From Opitutales bacterium (GTDB lineage: Bacteria > Verrucomicrobiota > Verrucomicrobiia > Opitutales > UBA953): DNA of 64,000 nt. A program made the position numbers and the translations under genes. The notes beneath the pieces are model-generated. The model saw only the letters and a list, made by a program, of their open reading frames with translations. It had not been told where the DNA came from and ran no database searches. This document shows, one piece after another, positions 54,617 through 63,958 of the stretch. The stretch covers positions 84,914 to 148,913 of the forward strand of contig JAFSAO010000010.1 in the NCBI GenBank assembly GCA_017440935.1. The letters run 5' to 3'. Numbering within the stretch: position 1 is the stretch's first letter; every line of letters starts with the position of its first letter.

Positions 54617-57600
54617 TTAACGACGACTACGGCGGCGCGAAGCGGAGAGCGCAATCGCGCCCAGCCCCGCGAGCAACCCGAACGCCGAGGGTTCGGGAAT
54701 ACTGTATCCGATAAAGACCGTTCCCGCCTGCGCGTCCGGAATCCTTGCTTCCGCATCGTAAATTTCATCTCCGACCTTGAACTTCACGCGGCTCAAATCC
54801 ATTCCGGCGCTCCCGTTCACAGCCAAGATAGAAAACGTTTTGTCGCCTTCTTCAACGACAAGCATCAGCTCTCCCGCCGAGGCCAAATCGTTAAAATCGA
54901 GCGCCAAACTTGCACCCGCGCCGACCGTCACGGTTTTCAACGCCTTCAAATCCGCATCGCTCCCGACAGAAAGCGACGTTCCCGCCGCCAGATTCAGCGC
55001 TGAAGCACCTCCGAGTGAAGTTACCGCCGTCGACGTGCTGCCCGTAACACTCACCGTATTAAAATCCGAAAGCGTCGCGCCGAGAGCTTTCACCGTAACG
55101 TTTTCTAAAACCAACGTCTTCGTTCCCGAAACGTTTTTCCCGCCGGAAATCGTTCCCGCGTAACGGTCAAAGCCGTTCATGCTGTTGCCGGTGCCCAAAT
55201 TTTTGAGCGCCACCGTCGAATCTCCGGTAATCGTCCCGCTCGTGCCGCCGCCGGAGATTGTGCACCATTGCTCCGCGGGAGAAGCGCGAAGCTGAGCGAT
55301 ATTTCCGTCAATCGTCACACTCGTGCTTCCGTTGATTGTGCCGGATTTCCCGCCGCCGTAAACACCGCCGAGAATTGTTCCTCCCGTGACGGAAACCGAC
55401 GTGCCGCCGTTGATCGTGCCGCCGTTCCCGCCGCCGTAAACTGCGCCGGAAATCGTTCCGCCCGTCAGCGTTACATTGCTCACCGCTCCGGCGTTGTTTT
55501 GGGGCGCAGAAGCCTGACCGACTGTTCCGGCAAAACCGCCGCCGTAGATATTTCCCTTGTACGTGCCGCCGTTGACGTAAATTCTCGTTTTCCCGATAGA
55601 TTGACCGCCGCTCGCCGTGTGCAACCCGCCGATAACATCGCGTTCAAATGTTCCCGCTCCGAGCTGAGCGTGAAGCGTTCCCGTGACGGCGGCATTGTAG
55701 GCTCCGGCAAGCGAGACCGGATTGGTTTGAGTAAACGAATTAAAAACCGCTTTTTCCGCGTTGAGATCCAAATAGACATCGCCGAAAACCGTTCCCGCGT
55801 TTACAGCCCCGAATACCGTGTTCCCGCCGCTGTTTGTGCCGCTCAAGCGCAACGTTACATTCCCGTTGAAATCGCCGCTCGTATGCGCCCCGTACCACGA
55901 AGACGCGTTCCCGCCCGAAACCTCGACAAAAAGCTTTCCCGTGTAATTCCCCGAGTTCGCGTAAAGCTGAGACGCATTTCCGCCGGAAACGTAGAGTCGC
56001 GACGACGTGTTTTTGCCGCCGGCAAACCCCGATGCATCTTGGGCGGAATAATTTCCCGAAGCCGTCATGCCGCTTTGGGCAAACGTGCTGTACGCCGGAA
56101 ACGTAATTCGACCTTGAGGTGCCGCCTTCGGGATAAAATTCGGGTCCGACGCGTAGTAAGCATTTGCCGTGTTGGTGGCGCGCGTCGTGTCCGGAGCCCA
56201 CGAACCCGTTCCGTCCATAGAAAAATTTTCCAACAAAACAGTTCCCGTTCCGGAATAACTGAACGTTACACCACTCTTGCCCGTTCCCGTAGTCACTCCC
56301 AGTCCCTGCCCGATCAACATATCGTCCAACCAAACGTAGAACCCGGCAGTAAGCCCTTCCGCCGCGTTCCCGACGACGTAAGCGACACGCAACGACTCCT
56401 TGTTCTTCGACATATCCGTAGAATACAAAACCGTATCTCCCCATTGGATATACGCCTCGTTAATATTCAAAACGCCGTAACGCTCCGAGTCCCCGACCGT
56501 CACGCTCATGTGATTTGTCGTATCCCATTGGTCAATCGCTCCGTTCCCGAGCGACAACCCGAAATCCACCGTAAACCCGTTCTTAAACGTCGCCTCCGAG
56601 TCCCAACCTACGGTCAGTGAAGACGTTCCCGCCTCAGAAAAACTTAATTTTCCATTTTCAACCAAAACCCCGTTTGAACTGATTCTTGAGTCCACGGGAA
56701 CGCTTTCAAACGAAGCAAAATGCGTGCTGAAATCCACCTCCGCCTTGCGCGTTTGCCCCGCCGTGCGGCCGGCATAGCCGAGAGCTTTGGCAACATTTCC
56801 CGCCATGATCAAATCGCCCTGCGCATTCGGATGAAGCCCGTCTTTGCCGTTTGTCGTTCCCGGGTTGTTAAACATCGACGAACATCCGAAAAACGGTGTT
56901 TCCGAAGCCACATCGATGATCCCTTCGTTCACGTCGACATACGTAATTTTCTTCCCGGTCGCCTTGTTGTAATTTTCAACCCACGTTCCGAGTTTCACGT
57001 TGTAAGCAGCGACGTCCCCGTGAACCTTTGCGTCGTTGCTATTCTGATGCGTCGTCCAGCAAGGAATGGAAAGCACGGTAACATTCGCACTCGCATTGCT
57101 CGCATACATCGCATCGATAATCGTTTTCATATCGCCGCCGGAAAGATTTTCCCCGAGCAAATTATTTACTTTCTCTACCGTCACTCCGGTAGCCGTGTTA
57201 TCGGAAAGCAAATCGTTCGTCCCGATCAGCAGGAAAAACGTATCTGTATTGTATATACTCCCGGAGTATGTTCCGCCGTTATTCGTCTTCGTCGAACGAC
57301 CAAGCCAATTCAAAATATTGGTATCGTTAAACCTCGCTCCGTCTTTTCTTCCCGCGATTTCCCACGCACGCGCACTCGCTTCCGAGCTATGCGCGTTACT
57401 GAAACTCACGCCGCCGTAAAGTTCTCCGTTGGAAACGCCGCCGGAATGATGCCCCAATTTATAACCCACCCCGTCATAGAGCACTCCGTTATCAACCAAA
57501 ATTTTGTGCATCTCCCAGCGATACGACGCCGAATTTACGCCGTGCGTTATCGAATCACCGACAAACATCACGTCGCCCAAGTTAAACTGTGAAACCTGCG

Positions 57601-57682
57601 CACCGCTCGCCGCACCCAAGGCAAAAACCCCGGAAGATACAGTGGCCGCAGAGATTAAAGATAGTATTGTGAGACTTTTCAT
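54617..57682 (-). CDS. Large PEP-CTERM surface protein with SGNH/GDSL hydrolase domain
   Basis: The 1021-residue exported protein has a signal peptide (1-28). The first domain (about 35-320) is an SGNH hydrolase: Ser44 in VGDSITHG, Asn156 in IGTNDL and Asp280/His283 in GKDGLHPN. It may act as an O-acetylesterase on glycans (inference). Residues about 325-495 look like a concanavalin-type lectin sandwich. Then come Gly/Asn/Thr-rich beta-helix repeats with IYGGGFAGT, VYGGGNGGT and VYGGGKSGT (about 700-800). The tail IPEPSAFGLLAG, hydrophobic run and SRRRSRR is an exosortase signal. It is therefore a surface-anchored enzyme-adhesin. Starting at the second Met gives a proper signal peptide. Confidence 0.85.
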   Translation of the reverse strand: MKSLTILSLISAATVSSGVFALGAASGAQVSQFNLGDVMFVGDSITHGVNSASYRWEMHKILVDNGVLYDGVGYKLGHHSGGVSNGELYGGVSFSNAHSSEASARAWEIAGRKDGARFNDTNILNWLGRSTKTNNGGTYSGSIYNTDTFFLLIGTNDLLSDNTATGVTVEKVNNLLGENLSGGDMKTIIDAMYASNASANVTVLSIPCWTTHQNSNDAKVHGDVAAYNVKLGTWVENYNKATGKKITYVDVNEGIIDVASETPFFGCSSMFNNPGTTNGKDGLHPNAQGDLIMAGNVAKALGYAGRTAGQTRKAEVDFSTHFASFESVPVDSRISSNGVLVENGKLSFSEAGTSSLTVGWDSEATFKNGFTVDFGLSLGNGAIDQWDTTNHMSVTVGDSERYGVLNINEAYIQWGDTVLYSTDMSKNKESLRVAYVVGNAAEGLTAGFYVWLDDMLIGQGLGVTTGTGKSGVTFSYSGTGTVLLENFSMDGTGSWAPDTTRATNTANAYYASDPNFIPKAAPQGRITFPAYSTFAQSGMTASGNYSAQDASGFAGGKNTSSRLYVSGGNASQLYANSGNYTGKLFVEVSGGNASSWYGAHTSGDFNGNVTLRLSGTNSGGNTVFGAVNAGTVFGDVYLDLNAEKAVFNSFTQTNPVSLAGAYNAAVTGTLHAQLGAGTFERDVIGGLHTASGGQSIGKTRIYVNGGTYKGNIYGGGFAGTVGQASAPQNNAGAVSNVTLTGGTISGAVYGGGNGGTINGGTSVSVTGGTILGGVYGGGKSGTINGSTSVTIDGNIAQLRASPAEQWCTISGGGTSGTITGDSTVALKNLGTGNSMNGFDRYAGTISGGKNVSGTKTLVLENVTVKALGATLSDFNTVSVTGSTSTAVTSLGGASALNLAAGTSLSVGSDADLKALKTVTVGAGASLALDFNDLASAGELMLVVEEGDKTFSILAVNGSAGMDLSRVKFKVGDEIYDAEARIPDAQAGTVFIGYSIPEPSAFGLLAGLGAIALSASRRRSRR

Positions 57683-57730
57683 TTTTACTTTCCCGGTAGA
57701 CAAAACACCAAAAGCACACCTGCATCAATA

Positions 57731-57760: not shown

Positions 57761-58405
57761 TTGACTCGCTACGAAATACAATATCGGGTTCGTTTTGACG
57801 GCAATGTCTGGAATGGTTCGGTTCACTACTGCAACCTTTCCCTTGTAGAGGAAGGCAACCAAGCAAGCATTCTTTTTGGGAACACATCTAACACAGCATG
57901 TCAAATCGGCTCAATCCTGCACAAGGACGTCAACAGCACAAATGCGCATGAAGCTCTCGCAGCAGGTTCGTGCAGCCACGTATATTCAACGAATTGGGCA
58001 GGTGGAGCTACCGCCGGCATATACACCTACCGACTTGTTTTCGAAACGTTCGCCGACAATAATATCAAGGATAACGTTTACTATTCCGTGACCAATGGAA
58101 ATAAAACGGGTAGCCTGCAAGCGGACTTGCACTCCGGACATTTTGGCTTTGGTGGCGACACAAGCAAAGTTTTTGACGATATCGGCTTTCACATTAAAGG
58201 AGCAAGCTATACGAACGCCACAGAAACTGTCGGCAACCAAATTGGTGTAACACTACTGACGGACGACGCGACTTTCACCAAATATTCACGCACTGACACA
58301 CCGGTTACGAACGAACCGAATGTTCCGGAGCCGTCGGCATTTGGCTTGTTGGCAGGGTTGGGAGCAATCGCACTCGCCGCGTCGCGCCGCCGCCGTTCCC
58401 GCTAA
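57761..58405 (+). pseudogene. 5'-truncated PEP-CTERM protein gene
   Basis: The 214-codon frame opens with a TTG, has an in-frame stop 12 bases upstream and lacks a signal peptide, although it ends in a perfect PEP-CTERM tail (VPEPSAFGLLAGLGAI, hydrophobic segment, SRRRRSR). Without a signal peptide such a protein cannot reach the exosortase. The body is beta-rich (YEIQYRVRFDGNVWNGSVHYCNLSLV), like a jelly-roll domain entered in the middle. I read it as a gene that lost its 5' end, possibly by the rearrangement that placed the SGNH gene next to it. Confidence 0.65.
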
Positions 58406-58432
58406 GATTTAATCTACACAGAATCAACACTC

Positions 58433-58467
58433 GCCTCTCCGAGCCTCCCTCGGAGAGGCTTTTTTTG
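58433..58467 (+). terminator. Terminator after the truncated PEP-CTERM gene
   Basis: Perfect 11-bp stem GCCTCTCCGAG/CTCGGAGAGGC with a five-base loop and eight T residues. Confidence 0.9.
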
Positions 58468-58628
58468 CAAGAAACCCAAACGCATCGGAGATGCTCCACT
58501 TCCGTAACCCCATGCGAAGCGAGCAACGCGAGTGGAGCTTGGGGAGCGCACGCAAAATAAACCGCGCCGCGGGAACGACACATTCGCTCTCCGACACCCT
58601 CATGGTGTAATGGAATAAAAACTCTCGT
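58465..58628. repeat. Long direct repeat, copy 1
   Basis: The module has a core TAACCCCATGCGAAGCGAG...GGAGCTTGGGG, followed by AAAATAAACCGCGCCGCGGGAAC. It is repeated with about 80% identity at 58763-58924. The core ends CCCCA and TGGGG are inverse. No protein-coding sense. Confidence 0.7.
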
Positions 58629-58762
58629 AAAGACTCTAAGCCGCAAAGTTTTTTTTCAACACAGAGGAGCACAGAGATTTTCTCTTAACGCAGAGGACGC
58701 AAAGAGAAAGAAAGTTTTTTTTTTCAGAGAATAACATCCGTTTCGGCTGTTTCTTTTTATTT

Positions 58763-58924
58763 CTTGCAGGAAACCAACGGCTCCGGAGGAGCGACACATC
58801 CGTAACCCCATGCGAAGCGAGCAACGCGAGCGGAGCTTGGGGAAACGACCAAAATAAAACCGCGCCGCGACGGGAACAGCCTTGCTCCCTGACGTTCTCG
58901 CGGCGCAATGGAACAGAGACTCGC
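58763..58924. repeat. Long direct repeat, copy 2
   Basis: Second copy of the module at 58465. Between the two lies a CACAGAGGAGCACAGAG and CGCAGAGGACGCAAAGAG tract with T10. Together with the sequence up to 59040 this is about 600 bases of non-coding, repeat-like DNA. Confidence 0.7.
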
Positions 58925-59039
58925 TACGCGCGCAATATCGAATCGCGAATCATTTACTCACCACAACTACGCTCCCACACCTCGCACCCACTCTGTAACT
59001 TCAGAAGTGTAACCGATGTATGACTGCACCAACGGCTCT

Positions 59040-59153
59040 TTAAGCCCTAACCTTTAAGCTCTCCACCCCCTCAGACACCGCCAAATACGCCTCGGCGGTT
59101 TTGCGAATATCGTAATCCTGCGCCCGGCGGGAACAGGCTGCGGCGGTTTTTTC
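59040..59153 (-). pseudogene. C-terminal remnant of a glycosyltransferase (GT4-like)
   Basis: On the minus strand a 37-codon stretch reads TAAACSRRAQDYDIRKTA then EAYLAVSEGVESLKVRA and a stop. It has the look of a GT4 C-terminus (helix, D-I-R-K-T-A-E-x-Y-L-x-V). An in-frame TAA lies just upstream, so the rest of the gene is missing. The tail runs into a TTAAAGG heptamer array. It marks an old end of the polysaccharide locus. Confidence 0.55.
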
Positions 59154-59186
59154 TTAAAATTCTTTGTCCGAAGCAGAAATCAAAGC

Positions 59187-59263
59187 GTTACATTTTGTAA
59201 CGCCTTGATCCCACTTCCTTTTCTTCAATTTCAGTCGGTTACAATCCGTAACCGACTGAAATT
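59187..59263. other. Two tandem GTTAC-N5-GTAAC dyads
   Basis: GCGTTACATTTTGTAACGC (core at 59187-59201) and a larger dyad at 59227-59263 (16-bp arms around AATCC, core at 59238-59252) share GTTAC-N5-GTAAC. They may be operator sites or hairpins at the edge of the invertible segment. Confidence 0.6.
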
Positions 59264-59309
59264 AATCAACCTCCCTATTGCCCTTATTCCTCTTCTCTAC
59301 CAAGCACAC

Positions 59310-59325
59310 CGAATTCCCTATTCGG
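59310..59325 (+). repeat. Left inverted repeat of the putative invertible segment
   Basis: CGAATTCCCTATTCGG is identical to the inverse of 61144-61159. It contains a dyad, CGAAT-TCCCT-ATTCG, with an asymmetric spacer, like a recombinase core site. It is read in the same codon frame (Arg-Ile-Pro-Tyr-Ser) at both ends. Confidence 0.75.
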
Positions 59326-59492
59326 ATCGCGTTGCGTTTTTAAGCTGGGTGTTATTCCCGATGGTTATTCTTTATCCGCTTTTGAAATATCCGAGGGCGA
59401 TTCCGAATGCGCGTTTTCTTGCTGTCGCTGCAATCTTTTGTATGGGCGCGATTACGATTGGCTTGTCGTTAATTCGTGCGGGTATGCGTTGA
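59310..59492 (+). pseudogene. Detached 3' cassette of the EpsG-family polymerase gene
   Basis: From the left inverted repeat the frame reads RIPYSDRVAFLSWVLFPM, then VILYPLLKYPRAIPNARF and ends IRAGMR: the C-terminal two membrane segments expected of an EpsG-type polymerase. The main body of that protein lies at 61082-62071 on the other strand and diverges after the same RIPYS. The frame continues upstream of the repeat to a TTG at 59205, but that part has no likely meaning. The stop overlaps the acetyltransferase start (TGATG), so cassette and acetyltransferase form a coupled unit. Confidence 0.75.
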
Positions 59493-59977
59493 TGAAAATG
59501 GATTTACTGAATAATCAAATCGCTCGCTGGGGCTTAAGTCTGATTCAAGGTTATTCCCACGAAAAGTATTGGAAGAGACGGGAACGTGTTGTCTCGGGCA
59601 AAGGATTTTTTCTTTGGAGAGCCTATTACTTGCTGTGGATAAAACGCGTGGATGCAAAGCATTTGTCATCCTTTGGAACGAATTGGGGGAAAGGGGCTTC
59701 GTTTGCGTCTCCGCCGCTTTTGCCGCACGGGCCCAACGGGATTATTGTCGGGCATGATGTGTCAATCGGGCGGAATGTAACGATCTGTCAGCAAGTTACG
59801 ATTATGCATGGGGGGGGGGGTAATATTGGCGATAATGTTCTCCTTGGGGCGGGTGCGAAAATTCTTCCGGGCGTTCATATCGGAGATAATGCAAAAATCG
59901 GGGCAAATTGTGTTGTCGTGGAGGACGTTCCCGCCGGGGCAACTTGCGTTTTACCCAAGCCGAGGATTTTAACGTGA
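59492..59977 (+). CDS. Left-handed beta-helix acetyltransferase (CysE/colanic-acid type)
   Basis: The 161-residue protein has an N-terminal helical part (about 1-65). Hexapeptide repeats follow: NGIIVGHDVSIGRNVTICQQ, GNIGDNVLLGAGAKILPGV, IGDNAKIGANCVVVEDVPAG. Such enzymes acetylate sugars in capsule or O-antigen loci, or serine. The locus context favours polysaccharide O-acetylation. An 11-G tract at 59810-59820 encodes four Gly (HGGGGN); a change of one G would frameshift the protein before the active hexapeptide turns are complete. In the present orientation it has no obvious promoter and its neighbour on the right converges. Confidence 0.85.
   Translation: MKMDLLNNQIARWGLSLIQGYSHEKYWKRRERVVSGKGFFLWRAYYLLWIKRVDAKHLSSFGTNWGKGASFASPPLLPHGPNGIIVGHDVSIGRNVTICQQVTIMHGGGGNIGDNVLLGAGAKILPGVHIGDNAKIGANCVVVEDVPAGATCVLPKPRILT
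59810..59820 (+). repeat. Homopolymeric G11 tract inside the acetyltransferase gene
   Basis: Eleven consecutive G follow CAT and precede TAATATT. The current length keeps the frame open. Tracts of this type drive on/off switching by slipped-strand mispairing. Confidence 0.85.
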
Positions 59978-59982
59978 TTTAT

Positions 59983-61068
59983 TTAAGTTTTTTTTTCACC
60001 GTGTTTTTGCTTTATATCTAAGTCAAGCAACCTCGCGCTTACTCCAAGGAGAACATAAAGCGAGGTCATGCGAATCATATTTAAAGAAAGGAAATTCGCC
60101 AATATCGGAAGTGCAAAAAAAAGATGATGGCATGTAGACGTCCGATAAAAACACTTTTTCAAAAAAAGAAGAAAGAAGAATGTTCCCGGTATTCCATAGC
60201 AAAAGACAACCGTTAGGAGTGTTGAATGAACTTCGAGCGGAGAAATTGGGTCGAATCGGTCGTAATTTCCGGCCCCGGCACCCAAAATATTATACACGGG
60301 AAACTCCCAAAGGTAATACCAGTGTCGATCTTGGTCGATCGAATCGAAAGAGAAAGAGGACATTCTGTTGTAGATTTCTAGCTCTAAAATTGCCGGAGCG
60401 AGAAATGAAATTCCCAAAATACATCCGCATACACAGAGAAGTTTCACCCAGAATTTACTTTTCCAAAAAATAATAAGCAAAAGGATTCCGAGGGAGATAA
60501 TTCCGCTTTTAGATGCTGTTAGAATAAGCAGTGTGCCACTTATTCCAACCATAAGTAGCAGGATTTTTTGACCAATAAAACCGTGGATATAAAAAAGAGC
60601 GACAATAGAGAGAGAGAATAACGCCCACGAAGACAATTGGTTAGGGTCATTGAAAAACGCCATGTAGCGCCCTCCGCCGTAATTTCCGCCGAGTTGCAGG
60701 TAGGCGAGACATTGAACGATTCCGATGAGCATGATTGCGCCGGTGGTGTAATAAACGCCTTTTCTCGAAGAGCAAATGCTGTACGCCAACGAAAGCGTAA
60801 TGGTGTTAAACCCAAGAATAAGTGATGAGAAGACAAACCCCCATTCGCGCCAATCGGAAAGGATAAAAAAGCAAACATTTACCAAACAGGCGTATAGTGT
60901 GAATTGTAAATACGCTTTTATGGGAATGGGTGAAAATATTTGTCTGTCCCGACGAAATATGCACAACGCTCCGATTAAGACTAACGGAATGTGAGCGATT
61001 TGGAAGCCGCCGCTCGGGAAAATATAGAGCGGAGTTAGCGCGAGAAATAAAAACCATAGAATATTCAT
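59983..61068 (-). CDS. O-antigen ligase/polymerase-like membrane protein (Wzy/WaaL type)
   Basis: The 361-residue protein has ten or more membrane segments. A GGRYMAFFNDPNQLSSWALFSL segment near 133 and the LTASKSGIISLGILLLI stretch near 185 match the WzyC/O-antigen ligase pattern, and a large loop lies near 230-285 (RHWYYLWEFPVYNILGAGAGNY). It would polymerise or transfer lipid-linked repeat units. Its start lies 13 bases after the truncated epsG stop, making it the last gene of the present operon. The whole gene lies within the putative invertible segment and would flip to the plus strand. AT-rich. Confidence 0.8.
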   Translation of the reverse strand: MNILWFLFLALTPLYIFPSGGFQIAHIPLVLIGALCIFRRDRQIFSPIPIKAYLQFTLYACLVNVCFFILSDWREWGFVFSSLILGFNTITLSLAYSICSSRKGVYYTTGAIMLIGIVQCLAYLQLGGNYGGGRYMAFFNDPNQLSSWALFSLSIVALFYIHGFIGQKILLLMVGISGTLLILTASKSGIISLGILLLIIFWKSKFWVKLLCVCGCILGISFLAPAILELEIYNRMSSFSFDSIDQDRHWYYLWEFPVYNILGAGAGNYDRFDPISPLEVHSTLLTVVFCYGIPGTFFFLLFLKKCFYRTSTCHHLFFALPILANFLSLNMIRMTSLYVLLGVSARLLDLDIKQKHGEKKT

Positions 61069-61081
61069 AGAGAAACAATGT

Positions 61082-62071
61082 TTAAGGAATTAAGAAATTT
61101 ACATTTGCCTTCAGATAAGTGCGTTGTGTGCACCGGATGTCTACCGAATAGGGAATTCGTATGACCAAAAGCCAAAATCCGTTTGCAACAATGTAGGTCC
61201 CGAGAAGCAAATTGAAAAAACGATCATCAAAAAACTGCTTTTTTCTAAGCCAAAATCCGACCACAACCGGAATCAAACTATATGCGATAAAATCCCAACG
61301 AAAGCCCTGACGATAAATATCACTTTCTCCTAACAAATAATTCGCCACACGTGCATCTTCTGCTTCGGCAAAGTACCCGCCAATCATTTCCTGTATTTGA
61401 TTTCCGAACAGCAAACTCAATCCTAAGCATCCGAACCACCCCGCGAATAGGAACTTGGGTTTCGGAACCATCATCGCGACAAAAAAAGCCGAAATCGGAA
61501 TTACCAAGGACTTGTGTAATCCAACAGCAATAAGCCACAGCAACACCAACTTAGTCTTATTCGGATAAAACGAAAGACCGAGCACGAAAAACGACAGCGC
61601 GAGTCCCGCCCGCATCGTATTGGTTCCGTAAGCAAAAAAGCCTAACGAAACCACCAACGCAAAAAAGTAAAGAGAGTATCTGCCCCCAAAAATTCTCTTT
61701 CCGGCAATCAAAAAATTCGAACAAAAAACTGTAGCAGTCAGTAGAAAAAACAGATCAGACGGCAACCTCAACCACGCGCAAAAGCGAATGTATTGTTGAA
61801 ACAGCCAATCATTCGTAAATTCCCAGTCTATTCCCGCCGAAGCATATTCAAACATTCCGCGATACCCCGCCTTATCGGAGGAAAGCACATCCGGCCAAAA
61901 ACCAATCAACAATACAACTGACAGGAAGACAAGTGCGACACCAATTCCTCGTGGAGCGGCAATCTCATTCGCATTTCCGTCGCTATTCCGAAGAACAACC
62001 GAAAGGCTCCCGATAGCGACAAGTACAAAAATCAGTCGATGAAATATAGGAGCTAATTCAACCCAAAGCAT
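61082..62071 (-). CDS. EpsG-family polysaccharide polymerase, C-terminus exchanged by inversion
   Basis: The 329-residue membrane protein resembles EpsG (about ten TM segments; SSDKAGYRGMFEYA near 65 and YGTNTMRAGLALSFFVLG near 152 are typical). After VIRIPYS (residue 309) it ends in a 20-residue tail (VDIRCTQRTYLKANVNFLIP) with no hydrophobic character. The expected continuation, DRVAFLSWVLFPMVILYPLL, is encoded at 59325-59492 on the opposite strand. Inversion between the 16-bp repeats would give a 364-residue EpsG, a usual length. In the current state the protein lacks about two membrane segments and may be inactive. It follows the GT2 gene by 16 bases. Confidence 0.8.
   Translation of the reverse strand: MLWVELAPIFHRLIFVLVAIGSLSVVLRNSDGNANEIAAPRGIGVALVFLSVVLLIGFWPDVLSSDKAGYRGMFEYASAGIDWEFTNDWLFQQYIRFCAWLRLPSDLFFLLTATVFCSNFLIAGKRIFGGRYSLYFFALVVSLGFFAYGTNTMRAGLALSFFVLGLSFYPNKTKLVLLWLIAVGLHKSLVIPISAFFVAMMVPKPKFLFAGWFGCLGLSLLFGNQIQEMIGGYFAEAEDARVANYLLGESDIYRQGFRWDFIAYSLIPVVVGFWLRKKQFFDDRFFNLLLGTYIVANGFWLLVIRIPYSVDIRCTQRTYLKANVNFLIP
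61144..61159 (-). repeat. Right inverted repeat of the putative invertible segment
   Basis: On the plus strand CCGAATAGGGAATTCG, the exact inverse of 59310-59325. The match covers 16 bases and ends abruptly on both sides. Confidence 0.75.
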
Positions 62072-62087
62072 AAATCTAACATCTCAT

Positions 62088-62882
62088 CTATTTCGTTTTA
62101 ATCGGACGATTCCGACGCTTTACCCACGCCGAAGATAACCCAAGGCAAACAACGCCGACGGCAATCACACCCCGTAAAACAACGCCAAAAAACAATTTTC
62201 CGCGTTCCCGCAGAGATATTCCTCGCCCGAAAAGCGCGACTCTTGCGCCCTGCTTTTGACGAAACAAATACTGTTTCAAATTAAACGAGAGCGAATCTTT
62301 GTAATAAATCACCGCACCGGGAAGAAGCCGAAAAGTAGATTGCCTTTTTGCTCTTCGCCACAATTCGGAATCCTCGCATCCATTAAAATGCTCGTCATAG
62401 TGCCACTTGCGGAACCACTCAATCTTTCCGGTAACAGTGGGATGAATGAACGAACTCACCGTCGTCGCTTCCGATACGATATTACGTCCCCCCAGCACGT
62501 TCCCGCCCTCATCAACAACAATCGCACCTCCGCCAACGACATCGACCTCCGGATGAGCAATCAAATACTCAAGTTGCCGCTCAACTCGATCCGGCAACAT
62601 CCTGTCATCGGCATCCATTCGAGCAAAAAATTCACCCTTCGCTTCATCAATGAGCTGATTTAACCGCGGCGCAATTTTTCTGTTCTTCCCGTCACAGACA
62701 AGCCGAATTCGCGAATCAGAAAAGGACCTCACGACCTCCGCCGTATTGTCAGAACTTCCGTCGTCAACAATCAGCAATTCCCAATTCGTGTAAGTCTGCG
62801 CCAAAACAGACTCAATCATTGCGCCAATCGTTTTCCCCGCATTATACGCGGGAACAGCTATAGTAACTAACGGTTCTTTCAT
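62088..62882 (-). CDS. Family 2 glycosyltransferase
   Basis: This 264-residue GT-A enzyme begins VTIAVPAYNAGKTIGAMIES, followed by LLIVDDGSSDNTAEVV, and has the DxD-type motif ARMDADDRML near 94. A substrate-binding segment GCEDSELWRRA lies near 168. The C-terminus holds one membrane segment (about 228-248, FGVVLRGVIAVGVVCLGL) and a basic end, so the enzyme is membrane-attached. It adds a sugar to the lipid-linked polysaccharide unit. It overlaps the upstream GT gene by four bases (ATGA). Confidence 0.92.
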   Translation of the reverse strand: MKEPLVTIAVPAYNAGKTIGAMIESVLAQTYTNWELLIVDDGSSDNTAEVVRSFSDSRIRLVCDGKNRKIAPRLNQLIDEAKGEFFARMDADDRMLPDRVERQLEYLIAHPEVDVVGGGAIVVDEGGNVLGGRNIVSEATTVSSFIHPTVTGKIEWFRKWHYDEHFNGCEDSELWRRAKRQSTFRLLPGAVIYYKDSLSFNLKQYLFRQKQGARVALFGRGISLRERGKLFFGVVLRGVIAVGVVCLGLSSAWVKRRNRPIKTK

Positions 62883-63958
62883 TTACGACATTTCCTTTCT
62901 AACAAAAAATTACGAAGCCATACCCGCGAGCCCTGTAACCACGCCACCAAACGCCTAGGGCAAACATATAAAAATCGTAATCCTATGGGTGCATCTTCCG
63001 AATCAATCTCCCTACGCAAGGACCTTATTTCCCCTTCTAAACCTACCCCCCTGTATCTAAACAATAAAAGCCATCGAAATTGGTTTAGCAGATGCCTTAC
63101 GCTCGGACGTTGAGACGCCACATCTTGATATCGACTAAGCGTAGAACTCCATACCTTATTCAGCGGGGGGTGGCTTCCTCGAGGCTTGTAAGAGTCATCA
63201 TTTGCCTTACGATAAAACAGCAAGATCTCATTAAGAAACGCAACGGGAGTCGTTAGTGCAGATTCAAACCAAAGCTTCCAATCCTCTCCCTCCACAAAAT
63301 TTTCACTGAAACAACCGTGCCGCAAACACGTTGCGCGTCTCATAATCACAGTTCCTGTACAAACAGGAAAATATAATAAATTACCCAACCAGAACGATTT
63401 ATACTGATTTTCAATGTAATCAAACAAGTCAAATACACCGAAATCTCCATCCGAAAATCCTTTCAGAGGTTTAGGTATTAATTCGGACATATACACACCT
63501 TCGCTAATCGCGTAAGCACAAACGCCATATCCCGCCTCTGGAAATTTCTTCATAAGGTTCTCCATTTTTTCCAAAAAACTCGGAGCCCAGCTATCATCTG
63601 AATCCAAGAAAGAGAGTAATTCAGACCTTGCGTGCTTTATACCGAGATTTCTTGCCGAGGACACCCCTCCGTTTTCTTTGTGGAAGACGCGGATGCGGGA
63701 GTCGCGGGCGGCGTAGTCGTCGCAGATTTTCCCTGAGTTGTCGGGAGAGCCGTCGTCCACAAGAATCAGCTCAAAATCCGTGAACGTCTGCGCGAGAACG
63801 CTTTCGATGCATTCCGGCAAATACTTTTCCACCTTATACACGGGAACGATCACCGAAACCTTCGGAGTGTGCCCCGTTCCCGCAGATTGCACAGATTCCC
63901 GCAGGATTTTTTCAGCGTTAATTTGCGGTCTCGACGGGAGAATTGTTTTTTCACTCAT
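62879..63958 (-). CDS. Family 2 glycosyltransferase with mosaic composition
   Basis: This 359-residue GT2 enzyme has VSVIVPVYKVEKYLPECIES, ELILVDDGSPDNSG, the DxD motif FLDSDDSWAP near 116, and GEDWKLWFES near 223. The C-terminal 100 residues are basic and helical. The 5' part (63660-63958) is GC-rich and carries two CGGGAACG octamers, as in the rest of the chromosome, but the remainder (62879-63660) is AT-richer and lacks them, which suggests that the 3' part was imported. It is the first gene of the operon GT2-GT2-epsG-wzy in this window. Confidence 0.92.
   Translation of the reverse strand: MSEKTILPSRPQINAEKILRESVQSAGTGHTPKVSVIVPVYKVEKYLPECIESVLAQTFTDFELILVDDGSPDNSGKICDDYAARDSRIRVFHKENGGVSSARNLGIKHARSELLSFLDSDDSWAPSFLEKMENLMKKFPEAGYGVCAYAISEGVYMSELIPKPLKGFSDGDFGVFDLFDYIENQYKSFWLGNLLYFPVCTGTVIMRRATCLRHGCFSENFVEGEDWKLWFESALTTPVAFLNEILLFYRKANDDSYKPRGSHPPLNKVWSSTLSRYQDVASQRPSVRHLLNQFRWLLLFRYRGVGLEGEIRSLRREIDSEDAPIGLRFLYVCPRRLVAWLQGSRVWLRNFLLERKCRK

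Follow-up and report, generated by a model that had tools for sequence, protein, structure and literature searches.

A probable invertible switch between two predicted polysaccharide polymerases in an Opitutales bacterium

A 64,000 bp stretch of DNA of an Opitutales bacterium of the Verrucomicrobiota (contig JAFSAO010000010.1, assembly GCA_017440935.1), termed the window here, carries near its end a surface polysaccharide locus with a segment bounded by 16 bp inverted repeats. One repeat lies inside the gene of a predicted polysaccharide polymerase, EpsG. The segment carries the gene of a second predicted polymerase, a Wzy-like membrane protein, and is found inverted in a sister species, G015. 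The probability that it is a reversible, site-specific switch between the two predicted polymerases is put at roughly 0.8.

Genes and repeats at the locus

The arrangement in the window is termed state A and the inverted arrangement state B. Positions are those of the window.

59227..59263, no strand: perfect 16 bp hairpin just outside the left site, missing from the G015 stretch compared
59310..61159, no strand: invertible segment, 1850 bp with both repeats; aligns inverted to G015:C3, with breaks inside the repeats
59310..59325, plus: putative left recombination site CGAATTCCCTATTCGG, perfect copy; best match in the 64 kb to the 29-mer flanking a candidate recombinase (22/29, at 59302)
59310..59492, plus: detached C-terminal part of EpsG (RIPYSDRVAFLSW... 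to the stop); 97% match to residues 303-364 of the predicted fusion
59492..59977, plus: hexapeptide-repeat acetyltransferase, overlapping the EpsG stop (TGATG); PF00132, E=6.7e-14 for 59498-59977
59810..59820, plus: tract of 11 G (G11) within the acetyltransferase, in frame in the window; nine G (G9), frameshifted, in G015
59983..61068, minus: Wzy/WaaL-superfamily membrane protein, 361 amino acids (aa); same direction as the operon in state A only
61082..62071, minus: EpsG, split (state A) form, 329 aa; PF14897, E=1.1e-20, profile positions 5-260 of 326
61144..61159, minus: putative right recombination site, perfect copy inside the EpsG coding sequence, encoding Arg-Ile-Pro-Tyr-Ser; second-best match to the 29-mer (20/29)
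62088..62882, minus: family 2 glycosyltransferase, same direction as EpsG; PF00535, E=1.5e-31
62879..63958, minus: family 2 glycosyltransferase, same direction; PF00535, E=8.4e-39; the contig ends at 64000, cutting off the operon upstream

A preliminary description of this DNA, made from the letters, had proposed most of this layout. The perfect 16 bp inverted repeat lies at 59310-59325 and 61144-61159 as described. The split EpsG frame shares its sequence with the whole protein as far as RIPYS (residue 309) and then runs into a distinct tail that ends before Wzy, while the missing C-terminus lies at the left copy. The TGATG overlap with the acetyltransferase is real, and a start at 59492 is possible. 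The ATG of the Wzy-like gene sits 13 bases past the stop of the truncated frame. Inversion of 59310-61159 in silico reproduced the single 364-residue frame at 62071-60977 that had been forecast.

A protein search with this fusion as query gave 70 matches among 7996 scored candidates, those sharing the most words with it. The crossover precedes four of the 16 columns invariant among 62 of these EpsG relatives; P0010, P0029, P0046, P0049, P0051, P0055, P0058 and P0059 were omitted from the alignment as partial, truncated or outlying. The expectation that the fusion would align better to EpsG was borne out on P0002, a natural whole form, which scores 82.1 bits on PF14897 (positions 5-306) against 74.5 bits (5-260 of 326) for the split form (cut-off 30.1).

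A repeat pair of this kind is not rare alone, as the window holds three perfect 16-mer inverted pairs spaced 100-5000 bp apart. No third copy of CGAATTCCCTATTCGG at up to three mismatches was found in the window, in a search where at least two matches arise in 32 of 100 shuffles. The 1.84 Mb genome (G000) has only two exact copies, both at the segment ends, and three matches at two mismatches; the further copies that the preliminary description had suggested looking for thus did not appear in exact form. With only two exact sites in the genome the locus is no shufflon, which has more than two sites at one locus. The dyad noted in the repeat, CGAAT-N5-ATTCG, is present, and its value as a distinguishing mark did not hold up: CCGAAT-N5-ATTCG with up to one mismatch has 121 genome matches, against 14 for a reversed control, an abundance that ruled it out as a specific genome-wide mark. 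One word, CGGAATTTGAAATTCG, recurs among the first 100 dyad matches listed.

The acetyltransferase is EpsC/CysE/NeuD-like by NCBIfam, all below cut-off among the 25 matches listed of 33. Its poly-G tract was absent from the preliminary description. The contrast of G11 with G9 is one between two species, and the genome holds 13 tracts of at least nine G (43 nine-G positions over both strands). Draft assemblies can misread homopolymer tracts such as poly-G. The tract would probably form a second, slippage-based on/off layer. Elsewhere in the genome, four poly-G tracts (10-14 G) occur within about 5 kb at G000:C4:20610-25662, and may mark further contingency genes.

No T-run was seen by eye at the hairpin at 59227-59263. 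A promoter scan of 58400-61300 found one promoter against a shuffle mean of 3.9, and is therefore uninformative. Two proteins, encoded at 54617-57703 and 57761-58405, adjoin the switch; they have PEP-CTERM-like tails, and one, of 1028 aa, is GDSL-like.

The inverted arrangement and the two predicted polymerases

The decisive result is a natural inversion in the related genome G015, as the preliminary description had anticipated. In a blastn comparison of the last 10 kb of the window with G015:C3, 59310-61159 aligns inverted to L087:12241-10396 (93.7% over 1850 columns). The right flank aligns directly (61144-63865, 86.3%), and so does the left flank (59283-59325 at 93.0%, 59064-59191 at 85.9%). 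Letter by letter, the junctions are identical through the repeat, after which the inner sequences are swapped; the left-site context in state B reads AAGCACACCGAAT-TCCCT-ATTCGGTAGAC. G015 has EpsG as one 364-aa frame, 27 residues different from the predicted fusion, with its stop adjoining the acetyltransferase and Wzy on the opposite strand, so that Wzy leaves the operon on inversion as forecast. Its virtual state A form of EpsG would have 320 aa.

Both states thus exist in nature, with breaks within the repeats and the sites intact in both. Because the inversion lies exactly at the repeats and the genome has only two exact copies, the pair is beyond chance; a chance repeat was ruled out by the natural inversion, for which the pair alone would not have sufficed. 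Inverted repeats bound a segment that occurs in both orientations, as in site-specific invertons, and one crossover site lies within an open reading frame and alters its product, as in intragenic invertons. The proposed switch would behave as a phase-variable inverton and is intragenic on one side. Neither a lack of the opposite orientation nor a worse alignment of the fusion to EpsG, which together would have told against the preliminary description, was found, and its phase-switch interpretation is largely supported.

Structural models liken EpsG to OST/ArnT and the Wzy-like protein to WaaL, and the modelled Wzy-like protein belongs to the WaaL/Wzy fold class (WaaL, FtsW, RodA). Its PF04932 (Wzy_C / O-antigen ligase-polymerase) scores, 27.5 bits in the window and 24.7 in G015, do not reach the cut-off of 31.7, and five of 21 Wzy-like homologues in a precomputed list carry the domain. 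Perhaps, then, the segment inverts and the Wzy-like gene encodes an O-antigen ligase, the alternation being one of polymerase plus acetylation with ligation. We consider this unlikely. WaaL and Wzy are held to share one fold, and the match cannot separate them. The genome has three other PF04932 proteins, two of them above cut-off, that could serve as ligase, and the Wzy-like gene comes after EpsG at the very point where the latter is interrupted. The protein would be a polymerase rather than a ligase.

A candidate recombinase and its sites

Three tyrosine recombinases are found in the genome, on contigs C8, C19 and C17. That on C8 scores above the XerD cut-off, and that on C19 is XerC/XerD-like and under it. 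The third (G000:C17:8639-9691, 350 aa; PF00589, 40.5 bits against a cut-off of 27.1) scores no higher than 49 bits with any Xer model and is the only one of the three that is not Xer-like. Its conserved R..K..R..H..Y residues are invariant in 14 homologues; no PDB sequence match was found for it.

The C17 recombinase sits within a 29-nucleotide (nt), 97% inverted repeat, AAGCCTAACGAATTTCCCATTCGGTAAGC, between a glycosyltransferase gene and a Polysacc_synt_2 gene, in a second polysaccharide cluster. Two of the three genome matches to the window site at two mismatches are these repeats, so that the search for a recombinase urged by the preliminary description led to an enzyme with related sites. 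When the 64 kb were scanned with three natural versions of the 29-mer, the window sites ranked first (22/29) and second (20/29). Of 200 windows simulated with a first-order model, one had a best score of 22, 14 had 21 and 49 had 20; the first site is unusual alone, the second only through its pairing with the first.

Seven homologues at 47% identity or more occur in six genomes of the genus, and related repeats span the gene in five of the six orthologues at 55% or more (G000, G012, G015, G014:C94, where they lie more than 1.5 kb out, and G011). For the sixth, in G016, a contig end is 107 bases away. At the 47% paralogue G014:C86, the stretch scanned held no perfect 12-mer pair that spans the gene. 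Of 28 distant matches (36-48%), 23 with loci (36-41%) were scanned with about 1.5 kb of flank and 20 mononucleotide shuffles each, taking the best repeat only; none had a best spanning repeat of this kind, four (L113, L116, L117, L124) being cut by contig ends, with a scan boundary that fell within the gene or ahead of it. The 21-nt repeat at L129 is of an unrelated kind (score 15, against at most 12 in shuffles), and a few other loci exceed their shuffles by one.

The C17 enzyme is the candidate for catalysing the flip, and would do so in trans. The spacer is TCCCT at the sites of the window and G015 and TTCCC at the recombinase, a difference that would disfavour cross-recombination between the systems. 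It is rather unlikely that another recombinase, XerC/XerD or a serine recombinase, flips the segment. XerC/XerD-like enzymes are present, as is a serine recombinase (PF00239; L136:1312-1929, minus strand, G000:C6). The serine enzyme, however, has its own repeats nearby: it adjoins two TaqI_C-like specificity-domain pieces, of which the second falls short of the cut-off, and these bear an inverted repeat (42 nt, 93%; L136 2443-2484/3303-3344), possibly an inverting restriction-modification specificity locus. An assignment of these neighbours as hsdS pieces was replaced by TaqI_C-like domains on Pfam evidence. Hin-type sites have a 2-bp core, which the odd 5-bp spacer misfits. No IS110/Piv-type enzyme was found in the genome, and it is the C17 enzyme that carries related sites in five genomes.

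Some other occurrences of the dyad may be recorded. Same-dyad inverted pairs at L097:9244-9465 (221 bp apart) and L098:9716-9999 (283 bp) lie upstream of the same gene, zinc-ribbon and Sel1/TPR-like, in two species; the pairs differ in their spacers and have terminator-like hairpins. Short pairs at G015:C42, G012:C16 and, more weakly, G015:C37 were rejected as invertons, appearing by eye as terminator-like hairpins or a shared repeat. G013 has a single site, and no pair was found. Each of the two polysaccharide clusters has a DUF4143 ATPase gene nearby (L009:5547-6698, L087:16258-17421). In G015 the end of the contig comes soon after the DUF4143 copy, and the two clusters may therefore adjoin in the chromosome.

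A proposed switch of polymerases and its meaning

EpsG matches were found in five of 79 family genomes and, at E 1e-40, in four of 273 genomes of the order; the only full-length relative near 90% among these is that of G015, and a scan of named genome contigs gave one locus. Among the matched proteins, P0002 (364 aa, 13 member sequences, seven contigs) is two substitutions from the predicted fusion and differs from G015 EpsG at 27 places. State B thus seems present in the window's own species, probably so on the strength of this protein. P0010 (71% identical, 320 aa) ends in the state A tail, a truncated form in another lineage. Full-length P0003, P0008 and P0009 have longest contigs of 3939, 7904 and 7412, equal in size to those of the Wzy relatives P0193, P0194 and P0196, which suggests, without proof, that the EpsG-Wzy pair travels together in further lineages.

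These proteins bear on whether the arrangement is a one-off rearrangement, or one inversion in an ancestor that the two species have fixed differently, with no active switch. Orientation was compared directly by DNA in two genomes, with protein support from others, as such a history would allow. It is nevertheless decidedly unlikely: both 16 bp sites are exact in both species amid surroundings 86-94% identical, a state B protein close to the window's fusion exists beside the window's state A form, and state A recurs in a third lineage. Sixteen bp is also short for homologous recombination. A chimeric join at the repeat, conceivable in a 22-contig draft, is hardly credible, as the segment ends agree with the G015 assembly, the state A tail recurs in P0010 and the state A frame ends 13 bases ahead of the Wzy start.

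The switch would work as follows. In state A the operon runs from two family 2 glycosyltransferases through a truncated, presumably inactive EpsG to Wzy, and the opposite strand holds the EpsG C-terminus and the acetyltransferase; in state B, that of the sister species, it runs from the glycosyltransferases through full EpsG to the acetyltransferase, with Wzy on the opposite strand. EpsG and Wzy would polymerise one and the same repeat unit, each forming a different bond. The C17 recombinase would act in trans, its own 29-bp sites being of the same design with a different 5-bp spacer, which would prevent recombination between the two systems. The G11 tract may add its on/off layer. Within a clone, inversions would be frequent and could be undone. 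The odds are slightly better than even for the full scheme, in which the cassette toggles a cell line between EpsG (OST-like) and Wzy (WaaL-like) acting on identical sugars through different bonds, with a spacer-insulated recombinase in trans and a poly-G overlay on acetylation, giving at least three coat states.

Several observations weigh against a switch of this kind. The two states come from different genomes and not from a single culture. In neither species does the Wzy-like gene reach the Pfam cut-off, and its modelled fold is closest to that of a ligase; for EpsG, the best Foldseek hit on its own had E 0.015, outside the threshold of 0.001. The genome has many copies of the dyad, and comparable short pairs in G015 and G012 share sequence with terminator-like hairpins. 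With regard to the recombinase, the serine enzyme is also present, the differing spacers leave action in trans short of proof, and the G011 repeats, a perfect 39-mer, have one dyad arm changed (CGGTT-TTCCC-ATTCG). The EpsG segment is found only in G000 and G015 of the six genomes with a recombinase at 55% or more; the EpsG of G016 is at 34%, and G011, G012 and G014 have no EpsG match. The recombinase segment has the same orientation relative to its flanks in G000, G012, G015 and the testable side of G014, and no inversion of it was seen there.

Phase variation of the coat is mostly known as on/off or whole-locus choice. Intragenic invertons, which Chanin et al. reportedly described in Nature in 2024, are said to be bounded by a short pair of inverted repeats and, on inversion, to change the coding of an open reading frame. 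The present element is like them in that inversion recodes a frame, and unlike them in that only one repeat lies in the frame and the flip truncates one polymerase while bringing a second, unrelated one into the operon. Inversions of Moraxella bovis pilin and Ureaplasma mba recombine coding sequence and exchange surface-protein variants, whereas here two enzymes of different fold classes are exchanged. The available sections of the papers name the former (PMC11868660) and describe chimeric structures from mba/UU172 inversions (PMC3047005).

Closer in phylogeny is the Akkermansia cps1 inverton, which lies upstream of cps1, turns the capsule on and off and has the motif CGGATT..AATCCG; the word recombinase is absent from the main text of that paper (PMC13343947, seen in part). 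Both belong to Verrucomicrobiota and to a surface polysaccharide locus, with inverted repeats and both orientations. Here, however, the proposed switch is qualitative and interrupts a gene, the dyad is CCGAAT-N5-ATTCGG, and one repeat lies within EpsG rather than upstream of the operon. Bacteroides fragilis likewise varies its surface polysaccharides by inversion, with a tyrosine recombinase, Tsr19, for the large capsule; as far as the parts available show, promoters of whole loci are inverted there (PMC3090145), in contrast to an exchange of polymerase genes within one locus. Second polymerases that alter the bond between identical repeat units are described, in the sections available, for Pseudomonas aeruginosa prophage D3 (Iap/Wzy-beta; PMC4815439) and for an Acinetobacter baumannii prophage wzy (PMC13228068). 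Those need lysogeny, whereas the present exchange is chromosomal, potentially reversible and without new DNA. No polymerase-swapping inversion was found in a literature search that covered few subscription papers.

If the reading is correct, each flip exchanges predicted polymerases and so alters the surface sugar coat, and a swap of polymerase only would change the bond between units without new sugars or new genes. Phage depolymerases typically cut this bond, according to the portion available of one study (PMC13228068). The choice of bond would be made on a clonal, potentially reversible timescale, and if the poly-G tract slips, state B would have versions with and without the whole acetyltransferase. 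The locus offers a candidate recombinase-site pair from Verrucomicrobiota, and would provide a compact natural pair in which to study how the linkage depends on the class of polymerase.

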